Shown here piece by piece: positions 4,537 through 28,777 of a DNA stretch of 64,000 bases. Origin of the DNA: Spiroplasma corruscae (GTDB lineage: Bacteria; Bacillota_I; Bacilli_A; Mycoplasmatales; Mycoplasmataceae); contig NZ_CP022535.1 of assembly GCF_002237575.1 (NCBI RefSeq), forward strand, positions 1-64,000. The letters run 5' to 3'. How positions within the stretch are numbered: position 1 is the first letter of the stretch; the number at the start of each line of letters is the position of its first letter. The position numbers and the translations under genes are program-made. Below the pieces are notes generated by a model. The model had not been told where the DNA came from and searched no databases. It saw only the letters and a program-made list of their open reading frames with translations.

Positions 4537-6960
4537 ATGGAAAATAATAACATAGAAAATAGATTATTAGATATCGACATAAAAACAGAAGTTGAACGAG
4601 ATTTTCTTGAGTATTCAATGAGTGTAATTGTTAGTAGAGCACTTCCTGATCTAAAAGATGGGTTAAAGCCTGTTCAAAGAAGAATTATATATGCAATGAA
4701 TGAATTAAAGATTTTTTCTGATACTCCTCATAAAAAATCTGCACGTATTGTTGGTGAAGTCATAGGTAAATATCATCCACATGGTGACTCTTCAGTTTAT
4801 GAAGCAATGGTTAGAATGGCTCAAGATTTTTCTTATAGATACCCACTTGTTGAAGGACATGGAAATTTTGGATCTATTGATGGCGATGGAGCTGCGGCGA
4901 TGCGTTATACTGAGGCCCGTCTTTCAAAAATATCTTCACTATTACTTAGAGATATTGATATGGATACTGTGCCGTTTGTAGATAATTATGATGCACTTGA
5001 AAAAGAACCCGTATATTTAACGGGTTATTTTCCTAATTTATTAGTTAATGGCGCAACAGGTATAGCTGTTGGTATGGCTACAAATATTCCACCACATAAC
5101 CTTTCTGAGGTAATAGATGCAATTGTGGAATCTATTAACGACAAAGATATAACTATTGATAAAATTCTAACTCTTATAAAAGGTCCTGATTTCCCAATGG
5201 GTGCTTCTATGACTAATGGTAAAAGTATGATCGAAGGTTATAAAACAGGAAAGGGTAGCGTAACATTAAGAGCGAAGATTACAACTGAAGAGACAGAAAA
5301 AAGAAATAGAATTGTCATTACAGAAATCCCGTATCAAACAAATAAACTTAAAGTTGTTGAAAAGATTGCTGAACTCCATAAAAATAAAATTATATTAGGT
5401 ATTCATGATATAAGAGATGAGTCTAATTATGAAGGAATTAGGGTGGTTGTAGAAGTTCAAAAAACTGCAAACATTCAACTTATTATAAAAAAACTTTATA
5501 AACTAACAAATCTACAATATAATTTTGCAATTAATTTATTAGCTTTAAATAATGGAAAACCTGAATTATTGAATATAAAAGATATTATTAGGTTATATAT
5601 AAACCACCAAATTTTAGTGATAATAAAAAGAAGTCAATATGAGAAAACAAAACTTGAAGATAAGTTACATATTCTAAAAGCGTTAAAAGTAACCATCGAT
5701 AACATTGAAGAAGTAATTAGAATTATTAAGGACTCTAAAACAACTGCAGAAGCAAGTCTTAATTTAGGTAATAGATTTAAATTTGATGATAAACAAATAA
5801 AAGCTATACTAGATATGAGACTACAAAGGTTGGTTTCTTTAGAACATGAAAAAATTGTGAATGAAATTTTAGATATTGAAAAACGTGTCACTTATTTAAT
5901 AGAAATAATTAACTCAAAAGAACTACAACAAAAAATATTAGTTGATCAATTAATAGATATTAAAAAAAGGTTCGGAGATGAAAGAAGAACAAAAATAATT
6001 GAAGAAGAATTAACTCAAATCGAAGATGAAGAACTAATCCAAGATGACCAATTTTTATTAAGTTTATCAAATGATGGATACGTAAGAAGAATTAAGCTAG
6101 ATGAATTTAAGGTACAAAAACGCGGAGGTAAGGGAACTTTACTAAGTAATAATCAAACCGATGAAATACTTATATCCTGTATTGGTAAAGCAAAGGATGA
6201 AGTTTTATTTTTTACAAATATTGGAAAAGTATATAAAATAAAAGCTTACAAAATACCTTTATTTTCAAAAAACTCAAGAGGTATTCCATTGATTAATTAC
6301 ATTGGTATAAGTCAAGAAGAAACTGTAACTTCTGTTTTATGTTACAAACAAAATAAAAATAAGAACTTATTTCTTCTAACAAAAAACGGTATTGCAAAAA
6401 GAGTTTTGATAAAAGAGTTTGAAAAGGTGAATAATGTAGGAAAATTATCTATTGTATTAGATGAAGGTGACAAATTGATCTCGGTTGTAGCAACAAAAGG
6501 AAATGAACATCTAATAATAGCTTCTAAAAAAGGTAAAGTTATAAAAATAGAAGAAGAGAAATTTAGAATTATGTCTAGAGGTTCAAGAGGTGTTAGAGCA
6601 ATTAAGTTAGACAAAAACGATAATACAGTATCTGCTTGTTCAACTGTAAAGAATACAATGGTAGTTACTATATCAGACAAAGGAATTTTAAAAAAGACAT
6701 TAATTGAAGAATATAATTTACTTAGTCGTGGTTCAAAAGGGATTATCGGAATGAAATTAAATGATAGAACTGGTAATCTTAAGTATATTTTCTCTATTAG
6801 AGAAACAGATGAAATAATCATGGTGTCCTCTGAAGGAAAAACTATAAGAATATTAGCTAGTGATATAAACCTTCAATCAAGAAGCAGTTCTGGAGTAATA
6901 GGGTTTGATGTAAATGATAAAGAAACTGTTACTTCTGTCTCAATAAAATTTAATAAATAA
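4537..6960 (+). CDS. gyrA: DNA gyrase subunit A
   Basis: DNA cleavage and rejoining subunit of gyrase, 807 residues. The catalytic tyrosine is in [10 protein letters not shown], at about residue 124, within the winged-helix domain. A GyrA-box-like QKRGGKG is seen near residue 527 at the start of the C-terminal beta-pinwheel, with further blade repeats ([33 protein letters not shown]). The GyrA box is the element that separates GyrA from ParC, and its presence plus pairing with gyrB supports gyrase over topoisomerase IV. The stop codon abuts the parS/terminator pair. Confidence 0.96.
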
Positions 6961-6963
6961 AAA

Positions 6964-6979
6964 TGTTTCACGTGAAACA
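6964..6979. promoter_or_regulatory. parS site 1
   Basis: TGTTTCACGTGAAACA is a perfect 16-bp palindrome matching the bacterial parS consensus TGTTNCACGTGAAACA bound by ParB/Spo0J. It starts four bases after the gyrA stop codon, about 7 kb from dnaA, where origin-proximal centromere sites are expected. It is followed by TTTTTATTTAT, so the transcript could also fold into a terminator. No parA or parB gene lies in this window. Confidence 0.85.
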
Positions 6980-7000
6980 TTTTTATTTATGCGAACTTAT

Positions 7001-7016
7001 TGTTTCACGTGAAACA
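7001..7016. promoter_or_regulatory. parS site 2
   Basis: Second exact TGTTTCACGTGAAACA, 37 bp from the first copy (start to start), in the gap between gyrA and the SRP RNA gene. The spacing puts the two sites about 3.5 helical turns apart. It is also followed by TTTTTATTTAT. Confidence 0.85.
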
Positions 7017-7078
7017 TTTTTATTTATTTGATATTGTTAACTAGCTTTAAATAATTCATTTTGTTTTTTATTTTAGAA

Positions 7079-24725: not shown

Positions 24726-26099
24726 ATGAAGAAAGTACTTACACTATTATCAGCGCTAATGTTAACTTCAACAGCCGCTATAAATACAGTCTCATGTGAG
24801 GCACCGACTGATGGGATGGATGTTTATGTTGGCGGTAAAAAAGAATATAAACTAAAATGAAGAGGTGAAGATAAAGATATTAGAGCAACAGAGTTATTCT
24901 CTAATGGTAATAATAAATTGATGACTAATTTAACTATCCAATTGTTAGAAGCGTTAACTTATAAAGATAGTAAATATCAAAACATTGAAAAGAGAACAAA
25001 AGAACAAAAATTTTTAGGTGAGTCTGGACTTGGTTTGTCACTTGATTATATTTTGAATGACTCATATACATCAAAAAAAGCAAAAATTAATTTCGATAAT
25101 GATTCAACAAAAGATGAGTTTATAGAAGATTACACAAGGTCTTCGAAAAACACAAGATTTAAATCCTTAGATTATAAAATTAATTCCATTAAACTAGATG
25201 ATAAAAATTTAAGTGCTGAATATGGCAATTCAAATACTAAAATTACCACTTTTAATGGTAATAATTCTTTTGGAGTAACATTAGAAAATGATTATAATGA
25301 AAAAGCTGAGTTAGATAAATCGGAAGTAACAAGTGATTCTAACGTTACTAAACAAAACTTATCAGATTTTTATGATTTAAATTGAAGTACGTATTATCCT
25401 GAATTATTCGAAAATGATAGTTTTGGATATTTTAGTGAATATAAAGATAAATTGGCGTTTGCAATGTCCTCAGAAGAAGCTGACAACTTTTATGATAAGT
25501 TATTGAATAATGTTACAACTGAATCACAAAACTTAATTAAAGGAGTTAATAAAACTACTTTCAGCTTAATACATAAACAACTTGTTGATTCAAAAGATAA
25601 AGTAGAAATTGGTTTTCTTATGCCTTCTGACTTTTTATTAAAAAAAGCTGATAAAGGAGAACGTGCAATCTCTGAGTACTCTGAGGATGCATATGATATA
25701 TCAAAAGGTGCAAAACTTTTTAGAGTAAAAGATAAAAAAGAAATAGGATCACAAAATGATAAAGAAAATGAAGGAAAAACTTTCGTGTATTCAAAAGCAT
25801 TAAACGCCCCTAGTATAAGTTTAGATTTTGTGGTACCGAGTGATAATGGTGACGAAAAAAGTTACACAGTTAATATTGATGGTTTAAATAATATGGTTGT
25901 TGGATTGACACTTTCAAACTTTAAAATAAGCGAAAAAAAAGACGAGTCAAATGGAAGTGCAAGAAAAGATCTGGTTTATTATTGGTATGAACCTACAATT
26001 TATCAATTCTCAGATAAAAAGTTTTTCAAAATTGGTGAGGAAAATATGTTTGAATCTCTTGATATCGAAAAAGTTAATATTAATGTAACCAAAAAATAA
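24726..26099 (+). CDS. Lipoprotein of unknown function
   Basis: 457 residues beginning with a classical lipoprotein signal: MKK, a hydrophobic stretch, then a lipobox TVSC with the lipidated cysteine at residue 24. This fits the signals of Spiroplasma surface lipoproteins. The mature protein is rich in Lys, Asn, Asp and Ser and has no domain I recognise. It reads UGA (Trp) near 24858 and 25382. An AAGGAG site lies just upstream. It follows dnaB closely (13 bases) with no promoter of its own that I can see, and is followed by a hairpin terminator. Likely exposed on the cell surface; function unknown. Confidence 0.85.
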
Positions 26100-26130
26100 A
26101 TAATAGATTAATAATCTATTATTTATTTTT
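26098..26130 (+). terminator. Terminator after the lipoprotein gene
   Basis: AAATAATAGAT and ATCTATTATTT form an 11-bp stem with a five-base loop, followed by ATTTTT. The first base lies within the TAA stop codon. The stem is AT-rich but long. Confidence 0.7.
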
Positions 26131-26156
26131 GATATATGAGATAATTAAAATATTAT
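26129..26156 (+). promoter_or_regulatory. Promoter of the Gln/Asn-repeat protein gene
   Basis: TTGATA at 26129-26134 and TATTAT at 26151-26156 are spaced by 16 bases. The expected start would leave a very short leader holding only a GTGAGG ribosome binding site before ATG 26174. Confidence 0.5.
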
Positions 26157-26173: not shown

Positions 26174-28111
26174 ATGAATTACTATATAAGATTTGAGAAT
26201 AATTATTTTAATGTTATAGACTATAGCTTGAATAAAGTGATTGCTTCTTTTTTAAATGAAGATGATGCGCATTTGTTTATTCAATCTTTATTTTATGTTT
26301 TTGACCCCTATAGTCCTAACATATCATGTCTTCCATTAAATGGATTCGGTTATAGCCCATTTAATTTTAGCTCATTTTATAATGAATCACCTCTTGGTAT
26401 AATGTCATTACCATATAATGGTGGAGGAATGTTTTACCAAAATTCAATTCCATCATTTACAAGCTTTTTACCAAGTAACATTCCACTAAATCAATATGTA
26501 CCACCCCAGTTGAGCAACGAACAAAAACCTTCAAATGACAATTTCCAACAACCATTCAATAGCCAACAACCATTCAATAATCAACAACCTTCAAACAACA
26601 GTTATTTCCAACAACCATTCAATAGCCAACAACCATTCAATAATCAACAACCTTCAAACAACAGTTATTTCCAACAACCATTCAATAGCCAACAACCATT
26701 CAATAGCCAACAACCTTCAAACAACAGTTATTTCCAACAACCATTCAATAGCCAACAACCATTCAATAGCCAACAACCTTCAAACAACAGTTATTTCCAA
26801 CAATCACCAAAAAATAACTTAGACTTTCAAAAAAATAATAGGGATAATAATTTAAGTAGTAATAGGCAATATAATCAACAAAGTCAAAAAACCCAAGGTT
26901 ATGATAGCTATGGTAATGAAGAAGATTTTTTAAATGAAAACAGTTTGCAAAAAGAAAGCAAATTCCTACAGTATAAGAAAAATAAAAGAGAATCATTATT
27001 TAACGATGATAAATTAAAGGAGGAGATGAGAAACTTTGATATATCTTCAAAAGAACCAATAATATTTAATGACGATACATTATCAATTGATAACTCAATT
27101 TTTGAAGAAGATAGAGAAGGTGCTATATTTAAAAATGCTGACTCTGAATTGTACTATAATAGTACTGATGATGATAGTTTAGGTGAACTCTCTGCTTACA
27201 AAAACTTAAGTAAAGCATCGGTTAAAAAAAAAGAAGTAAAAGATAGGTTAAATAATTTGACCTCACCCAATTTAGTTGATTCAAATAGTGAAATATTTAA
27301 TAATAATAGTTTTAAAAATAATGAAATATATAAGAATGAAGCAGATTCATTATTAGAAGAAGAAAGCGTTAAAAATAAAAATAATTTAAAAGAAAGAATT
27401 CAAGAAATATTACAAAAAGATAAATCTATTAATGAGGAAAAAGATAATAGTTTAAGAGAATCAACTATAGTAAATAACGATTTAAATGCAGAAGTAGATT
27501 ATAATAAAAGTCACCACGTTTCGAAAATTAATAATGACACAAAAGTAGAAGGACTATTAGATTCAAATAACTCAAAAGAAATCCCATTTAAGGATGATGA
27601 AAATCTTGATTTTATAGTTGATAAGGAACTTGATGAATTAAATGATAGTTATCAAAATACCCTAAGGAATAAGGAAATTTCAAGCAAAGTTAACTCGCCA
27701 TTAGAGTATGAAAATGACTTAATTGCAGAAGGTAAAAATTTAAACTATAATTTAAATAATGAGAAATTGGATAACCAATTAGACCAAATTAAATATGAAA
27801 AGCTTCTTAAGGAAGCTGATTTAATTAATAAAAAGCCCGAAAAAAACGCTCTTGATAGTAACAAAGAAACGGGCAAATCAATAACAAGTCTATATGAGGA
27901 CAATCTTGTTACAGTGAATAACTTTGTTCCAAAAAAAGATGATGTAATTGATCTTGGTCCAATTAACGAAGAAGATGAAATTTTCTCAACCCCTAGAAGA
28001 GATGCGGAAATGGATGATTTTGAAAACTTCGGAGTTAACAAGAAAGAAAGAAGAATCCTTAAAAGGATTGATAAACAGCAAAAGAAAGAACAAAAGAAAG
28101 AAAAAAAATAG
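26174..28111 (+). CDS. Large low-complexity protein with Gln/Pro/Asn tandem repeats
   Basis: 645 residues with no domain I recognise, no signal peptide and no clear membrane segment. The first 45 residues (NYYIRFENNYFNVIDYSLNK) look folded. Residues 50-115 are Pro/Ser/Asn-rich; residues about 122-210 are four 21-residue repeats of the form SYFQQPFNSQQPFNSQQPSNN. The remaining 400 residues are highly charged and rich in Asn, Asp, Glu, Ser and Lys, ending in a lysine-rich coiled tail (KQQKKEQKKEKK). This layout, Pro/Gln repeats plus a long acidic region, resembles cytoskeletal and attachment-organelle proteins of mycoplasmas such as HMW3 and P65, but no homology is claimed. Confidence 0.8.
   Translation: MNYYIRFENNYFNVIDYSLNKVIASFLNEDDAHLFIQSLFYVFDPYSPNISCLPLNGFGYSPFNFSSFYNESPLGIMSLPYNGGGMFYQNSIPSFTSFLPSNIPLNQYVPPQLSNEQKPSNDNFQQPFNSQQPFNNQQPSNNSYFQQPFNSQQPFNNQQPSNNSYFQQPFNSQQPFNSQQPSNNSYFQQPFNSQQPFNSQQPSNNSYFQQSPKNNLDFQKNNRDNNLSSNRQYNQQSQKTQGYDSYGNEEDFLNENSLQKESKFLQYKKNKRESLFNDDKLKEEMRNFDISSKEPIIFNDDTLSIDNSIFEEDREGAIFKNADSELYYNSTDDDSLGELSAYKNLSKASVKKKEVKDRLNNLTSPNLVDSNSEIFNNNSFKNNEIYKNEADSLLEEESVKNKNNLKERIQEILQKDKSINEEKDNSLRESTIVNNDLNAEVDYNKSHHVSKINNDTKVEGLLDSNNSKEIPFKDDENLDFIVDKELDELNDSYQNTLRNKEISSKVNSPLEYENDLIAEGKNLNYNLNNEKLDNQLDQIKYEKLLKEADLINKKPEKNALDSNKETGKSITSLYEDNLVTVNNFVPKKDDVIDLGPINEEDEIFSTPRRDAEMDDFENFGVNKKERRILKRIDKQQKKEQKKEKK
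26537..26803 (+). repeat. 63-bp tandem coding repeat, four units plus a partial
   Basis: Units lie at 26537-26599, 26600-26662, 26663-26725 and 26726-26788, with a partial fifth. Units 3 and 4 are identical in DNA; unit 2 differs from them at about two positions; unit 1 has a diverged first codon pair. Each unit is itself three 18-bp hexapeptide repeats (QQPFNS, QQPFNN/S, QQPSNN) plus nine bases coding SYF. The unit length is a multiple of three, so gain or loss of units keeps the frame. The coding strand is strongly C-rich and G-poor compared with the flanks. Confidence 0.95.
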
Positions 28112-28777
28112 ATGAGTTGAAAAAGTTATCTTAATAATGAATGAACCGAATTTATTCTTTCTAATAATTTAGATTTTGAACTAGATAAAATATGAAAGAG
28201 TTTAGAACAAATAAATAATTTTTTACCTCCTAAGGAACTAGTGTTTAATTTGTTTAATAATATTAGTGTGAATAACATTAAAGTAATAATTCTAGGACAA
28301 GATCCTTATCATGATATAGGTCAAGCTGATGGTGTTGCGTTTAGTAGCTTTAATGACAAACCCACCCCAAGAAGTCTAAGTAATATTTTTAAGGAGTTAA
28401 AAAGAGATCTTAATGTTGATCATAAATTAAACAATAGTTTAATGGGATGGGTAAAACAAGGTGTTTTTTTAATTAATACTTCATTGACTGTTGAACCGCA
28501 TAAACCTAATTCCCATAAACGATTAGGCTGAGATAGATTTATTATTAAATTATTAGAAAATTTAAATCATAAAAATAAAAATATTATTTATTGTTTATGA
28601 GGTAATTCAGCAAAAAATATATATAATAATTTTAAGAAAAAAACCAAGGATGTTATTATTACTTCCCATCCTTCCCCCTTTAGTTTTAATAAAGGTTTTT
28701 CTGGGAGTTCTGTCTTCTCAAAAATAAACATATTATTGATAAATAAGCAAATTAAAACTATAGACTGAAGTTTATAA
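28112..28777 (+). CDS. ung: Uracil-DNA glycosylase
   Basis: Removes uracil from DNA. It has 221 residues and starts at ATG 28112 right after the stop of the repeat-protein gene; nine UGA codons are read as Trp. The water-activating loop GQDPYH spans residues 62-67 and the leucine-loop region is HPSPFS from residue 186 (usually HPSPLS). The [24 protein letters not shown] segment is conserved. In many other frames the gene would look broken, but it is complete in code 4. Confidence 0.95.

Follow-up and report, generated by a model that had tools for sequence, protein, structure and literature searches.

A modular low-complexity protein encoded beside ung in Spiroplasma corruscae, a candidate cytoplasmic scaffold of MreB-rich spiroplasmas

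The attachment-organelle core proteins of Mycoplasma pneumoniae (P65, HMW1, HMW3, P30 and P200) contain long disordered P/Q/N-rich and charged sequence and belong to the scaffold of a wall-less cell. P65, which multimerises, is required for stabilising P30 and HMW2 (PMC11940719). The ribbon of Spiroplasma contains Fibril and MreB1-5, and the protein lists published for Triton-extracted cores (PMC5289999, Table 1) and for isolated ribbons (PMC9582952, Table 2) of S. eriocheiris contain no entry for an unknown soluble protein near 40 kDa.

The gene described here lies in a 64,000-nucleotide stretch of the Spiroplasma corruscae chromosome (the window), in a genome of 1.2 Mb in which TGA is read as Trp. 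With 5% Pro, 16% D+E and a disordered index overall, the composition of its product is that of the acidic, proline-rich disordered (APR) region used to characterize attachment-organelle proteins. An earlier note on this DNA had likened the layout of the protein to mycoplasma cytoskeleton and attachment-organelle proteins. As a statement of homology this likeness could not be upheld: Pfam searches extended to E 5 with the full-length protein and with its ends detected no EAGR box, 23 sequences of the N-terminal module (module A) likewise had none, and neither Pfam nor NCBIfam returned a match of any other kind. Judged by these searches, the target is not an EAGR-box attachment-organelle protein. 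In contrast to the M. pneumoniae proteins, it belongs to a different lineage, shares no detected domain with them and has no evident coiled-coil block; moreover, the disordered region of P65 is N-terminal, whereas that of the target follows a folded N-terminal module. By analogy, it may still work like these disordered core proteins. Fibril and MreB1-5 show no sequence similarity to the target, although module A occurs in MreB-rich lineages.

No credible match came from sequence searches of Pfam, NCBIfam and PDB, whether with the full-length protein, with its ends or with module A, and the target family is unnamed in the libraries searched (Pfam, NCBIfam). A homologue with a different known role, which the earlier note would have taken as evidence against a scaffold, was thus not found in these three resources. 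No description of the target protein was found in the open-access literature, which is not proof of absence.

The gene, its neighbours and transcription signals

The coordinates of all features are collected in Table 1. The open reading frame has no in-frame TGA, so that its translation is identical under codes 4 and 11. Much of the earlier description of the protein was borne out. Residues 1-44 lie on the folded side of the charge-hydropathy index and the remaining protein on the disordered side, the C-terminal part is charged (D+E+K+R 38%) and ends in a Lys-rich tail, and the absence of a signal peptide was confirmed and extended to any transmembrane-like stretch (max KD19 0.75). The Gln/Pro/Asn repeats are equally real, the repeat block being beyond chance according to TRF, and the Q/N-rich composition of the linker that contains it fits a prion-like domain; this linker is the least conserved part of the protein. 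The word giant was too strong for 645 residues, though one orthologue reaches 2209. Minor matches elsewhere in the same genome, at 71% over about 110 bp and at 96% over 25 bp, resemble low-complexity DNA.

Table 1. Features of the target gene and its immediate surroundings (window coordinates).
Feature	Position	Strand	Remarks
Lipoprotein gene, 457 aa, upstream neighbour	24726..26099	+	LP_plasma signal model E 7e-4, just under cut-off
Inverted repeat, 11 bp perfect, 3-nt loop	26099..26123	+	followed by T-rich tract (to 26130); read directly from sequence
Promoter-like site TTGATA-16-TATTAT	26129..26156	+	scores 10/12
Whole target gene	26174..28111	+	ATG start, 645 aa plus stop; 26/60 family genomes have an orthologue
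Module A, residues 1-44, small N-terminal domain, predicted beta-beta-beta-alpha	26174..26305	+	profile match E 1.9e-23; averaged Chou-Fasman propensity; common to other protein types
Linker 1, Q/P/N-rich, disordered, variable	26306..27046	+	QNP 43%; charge-hydropathy index -0.19; omega about 0.2-0.7 in relatives
63-bp tandem repeat, 4.2 copies (21-aa unit NSYFQQPFNSQQPFNSQQPSN)	26541..26803	+	TRF 99% matches, score 498
Module B, residues 292-345, FNDDTLSIDNSIFEED..GAI..NSTDDDSLGELSAYK	27047..27208	+	profile match E 5.4e-20
Linker 2, charged, disordered, variable	27209..27859	+	omega about 0.3-0.7 in relatives
Module C, residues 563-619, SITSLYEDNL..DDVIDLGPINEEDEIFSTPRRDAEMDDFENF	27860..28030	+	profile match E 1.6e-32 for C+D
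Module D, basic Lys/Arg-rich tail	28031..28108	+	sequence and orthologue alignment
ung (uracil-DNA glycosylase)	28112..28777	+	start codon directly after target stop; elsewhere in genus overlapping or within about 12 bases

The gene order in the window is rpsF-ssb-rpsR-rplI-dnaB-lipoprotein-target-ung; downstream come a gene resembling ECF-S (E 1e-7 with the folate ECF-S model, short of the cut-off) and cysS. The adjoining lipoprotein gene was correctly noted before. It neighbours ung in the absence of the target in g2 (G020), in g10 (G051) and in three of the four g12 genomes, and since it is kept in genera without the target, the lipoprotein beside dnaB is best seen as an independent conserved neighbour. 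The inverted repeat and T-rich tract at its end might form a weak terminator of the lipoprotein gene that separates it from the target; the scan of the region missed this repeat because its stem is nearly GC-free. The own promoter proposed earlier for the target is plausible at the site listed in Table 1 but not significant, as promoter-like sites in the region are no more frequent than expected by chance (30 observed versus 27.6+/-5.5). The gene is probably co-transcribed with ung, given that its stop abuts the ung start; stop and start overlap by one base in eight relatives (G002, G006, G009, G011-G014 and G016). Elsewhere in the window, positions 6948-7026 carry an imperfect tandem repeat (37 bp x 2.1) with the palindrome TGTTTCACGTGAAACA, which resembles a ParB-type parS site.

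Conserved modules, orthologues and MreB-rich genomes

Alignment of the orthologues revealed four conserved blocks, A, B, C and D, the remainder being low-complexity sequence with species-specific repeats. Module B has the consensus NNTDDDSLGExSAY, and D42, S44, G46 and E47 of the module are invariant in 25 sequences; in module C (VIDLGPxxEEDxIFSTPRxDAE) the D, G and P of DLGP are invariant. By pairwise synonymous/nonsynonymous estimates, omega in A, B and C+D lies mostly at 0.03-0.2, with values up to 0.48 for comparisons with few substitutions, as against 0.2-0.7 in the linkers of closely related pairs; the pairs that include the window's own gene are mostly saturated at synonymous sites, and the argument therefore rests on closer pairs of relatives. 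Linker composition is alike among orthologues and the repeats arise anew in each species, with periods of 21, 14, 24 and 6 residues. By the charge-hydropathy line, all 25 orthologues count as disordered when taken whole and as folded in module A, and none of the 25 has a transmembrane segment. The C-D end is tandemly duplicated in two genomes (L041, L050). From these alignments and estimates, modules A to D are what evolution keeps, while the eye-catching repeat block is the least conserved part. The protein can thus be described, on sequence evidence, as a conserved small module A, disordered linkers that keep their composition only, and modules B, C and basic D under strong purifying selection, all in a fixed genomic position.

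The drifting linkers and the length range of the orthologues (356-2209 aa) are also what a fast-evolving low-complexity gene would show that has no specific role and is kept by its operon position. We regard this as very improbable, because the low omega in A, B and C+D largely refutes it; in addition, all modules are retained together, and the gene occurs in every genome of the genus.

Each of the 20 genomes of the genus (g1) carries a single orthologue, which precedes ung and has the lipoprotein upstream in all 20. On this gene order, the target is present without exception and in conserved synteny throughout the genus, and is not peculiar to one species. Among the 60 genomes of the family, A, B and C+D co-occur in the same 26 (g1 20/20, g4, g5, g6 and g9 3/3), a result that also answers the earlier suggestion to search both ends of the protein in relatives. 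Profiles of A and B were run in 320 genomes of the order, and that of C+D in the 60 family genomes; outside the family, the A and B profiles gave nothing better than E 0.0017 in the order, and the module B matches there, at E 0.003 or worse, were taken as chance. Two scans of named genomes, and searches of viral contigs and plasmids, yielded no confirmed relative. The lipoprotein-target-ung arrangement extends to other genera (G023, G047-G049), and in G024 the target is present with ung elsewhere. The largest orthologue (L037:2204-8833 (+), 2209 aa) was enlarged by growth of the low-complexity linker. In G025, a genome of 80 contigs, the orthologue is split between neighbouring frames of 152 and 178 aa (L057:3612-4660 (+)), which reflects either gene disruption or a sequencing or assembly error.

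The family splits into 42 MreB-rich genomes, with 4-9 matches to the MreB family and a best E no higher than 2e-127, and 18 MreB-poor genomes, with 1-3 matches and a best E of 5e-19 to 2e-61, possibly including DnaK cross-matches. The window's own genome has eight MreB matches. Module A is found in 40 of the 42 MreB-rich and in none of the 18 MreB-poor genomes (Fisher p 2e-13, ancestry not corrected for); the two MreB-rich genomes that lack it belong to g10. At least two parallel absences of the target in MreB-poor lineages are suggested, since the genomes without it fall in two separate groups of the ung tree (g3/g7 and g2/g12), a tree with many weak branches from which g10 and g11 are missing. 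MreB-richness, lineage and genome size are confounded, and independent losses are few. The link of module A to MreB is a co-occurrence across the genomes compared.

This distribution bears on the possibility that the target is a cell-division or pole-organising scaffold, a client of the FtsZ/SepF type, rather than a component of MreB ribbon or envelope anchoring. Division scaffolds typically carry short, conserved acidic motifs within disordered chains, and modules B and C are motifs of this kind. However, the target is absent from the MreB-poor relatives, which divide too, and a division role seems to us distinctly unlikely.

Module A in other proteins

Module A is, by profile matching, the N-terminus of a wider, lineage-specific family. 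Its first profile had also matched, more weakly, additional loci of the genus and of g8. We defined this family by a profile E below 1e-3, distinguished four types (I-IV) within it, and built a wide profile from several module-A protein types. The target lies well inside the family (Table 1; E 9.3e-18 with the wide profile) and, with A, B, C and D together, belongs to type I as defined here; no other protein of its own genome carries module A in the wide-profile search. The wide profile found the module in g1, g4, g5, g6, g9 and all 14 g8 genomes, whereas no match in g2, g3, g7, g10, g11 or g12 was better than E 0.03. In a class sample of 395 genomes, G434 gave the single weak match beyond the family (E 2.3e-5). 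It involves the C-terminal end of a protein of 298 aa (L119:2021-2917 (+)) that is unlike other members and is encoded beside a membrane protein; this likeness possibly arose by convergence.

Type II proteins are soluble. They begin with A and the motif (V)SYGNITIN, continue with a middle that is variable or coiled-coil, and finish with LTxxEINNFIxKLE; they occur in 14 of the 20 g1 genomes at E<=0.05, a few of them marginal. In two of them (L112:968-2020 (-) and L113:774-1832 (+)) the middle is a long heptad-like KIKKLEE coiled coil, and a third (L096:2667-3446 (+)) carries IVEKPVEKIVEK repeats. A Pfam match of the latter to IMCp (alveolin; E 4.7e-4, under cut-off) was set aside as a V/K/E/P repeat that is probably compositional rather than homologous. 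Type IV is represented once in each of the 14 g8 genomes (loci L099-L102 and L105-L109 among them) and has the same layout as the target, namely A, P/Q/N-rich and acidic sequence and a basic tail; its gene adjoins truA in the four loci inspected.

Type III proteins combine A, a linker, one transmembrane segment and Big_2/Ig-like repeats, and reach about 1000 aa. All five examined have 6-8 K/R before the transmembrane segment and 1-3 after it, and since the basic side precedes the segment, the positive-inside rule places module A in the cytoplasm. At type III loci (L093, L095, L103, L091 and L092, with fuller copies at L114, L116, L117 and L118), the gene often forms a tandem with another module-A gene whose product is soluble. 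These ectodomains would suit an accessory role in adhesion: Ig-like surface proteins would be backed by a platform of module-A proteins in the cytoplasm, and the target would serve this platform and not cell shape. We hold this to be quite unlikely, as the target is also present where no type III member was found, the window's own genome included. The target itself has none of the Big_2 repeats.

The fold of module A was approached by averaged Chou-Fasman propensities, a weak method, which gave three strands followed by a helix. AlphaFold2 with a single module-A sequence returned an all-helical model of low confidence (pLDDT 66, pTM 0.32) that contradicts the beta pattern and was not trusted. 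In secondary-structure order and in the helix start F-x-[ST]-x-x-[DE]-A, module A presumably resembles AP2/Arm-type or DUF2188-like domains, which we take as a lead only; none of the 23 module-A sequences had a Pfam match better than E 0.037, and solved structures gave no module-A match by sequence. The strand-helix order shared with AP2/Arm-type DNA-binding domains, the basic tail D and the position of the gene in a block with ssb, dnaB and ung, its stop abutting the start of the latter, could together indicate a nucleic-acid- or nucleoid-associated protein. Against this, Ig-like membrane proteins carry module A at their cytoplasmic end, which would be odd for a DNA-binding domain. The module is also close to neutral, with an absolute net charge of 0.00-0.16 per residue, it has no Pfam match to AP2/Arm-type families, and the gene block is partly ribosomal and includes a lipoprotein. 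We therefore consider a nucleoid function unlikely.

A possible role in MreB-rich spiroplasmas

The reading that we tentatively favour, while holding it somewhat short of probable, is that the target is a soluble cytoplasmic scaffold, or tether, of MreB-rich spiroplasmas, which would serve shape maintenance or surface-protein anchoring via the MreB cytoskeleton or the inner face of the envelope. The earlier suggestion of a new Spiroplasma scaffold survives in so far as the predicted protein is soluble, cytoplasmic, modular, of low complexity and confined to MreB-rich (helical-type) lineages; it is not new to one species. Module A could act as a docking or self-assembly domain that gathers the target and the related membrane proteins at a common place in the cytoplasm, most likely on the MreB-based cytoskeleton or along the inside of the envelope. 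Modules B and C may be linear motifs that bind partners, tail D may bind acidic membrane lipids or nucleic acid, and the Q/P/N linker would be a flexible spacer that sets the reach of the protein and possibly condenses.

The published core and ribbon lists of S. eriocheiris give the MreB link no direct support. We take this species to belong to the g8 lineage, whose genomes are without an A-B-C-D protein. The g8 module-A protein, of about 40 kDa, has no evident match in these lists, where MreBs of that size could mask it. More speculatively, module A might be a common docking unit that ties type III, type II and types I and IV to one internal structure, in a shape-and-adhesion system evolved independently of, and analogous to, the mycoplasma attachment organelle; we think this doubtful.

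As the linkers drift, a class of hypothetical proteins appears species-specific. With a distribution that follows MreB-richness, and with disordered scaffolds and Ig-like membrane proteins joined in one family, the module-A proteins may offer testable candidates for the coupling of ribbon, membrane and surface in wall-less helical bacteria.
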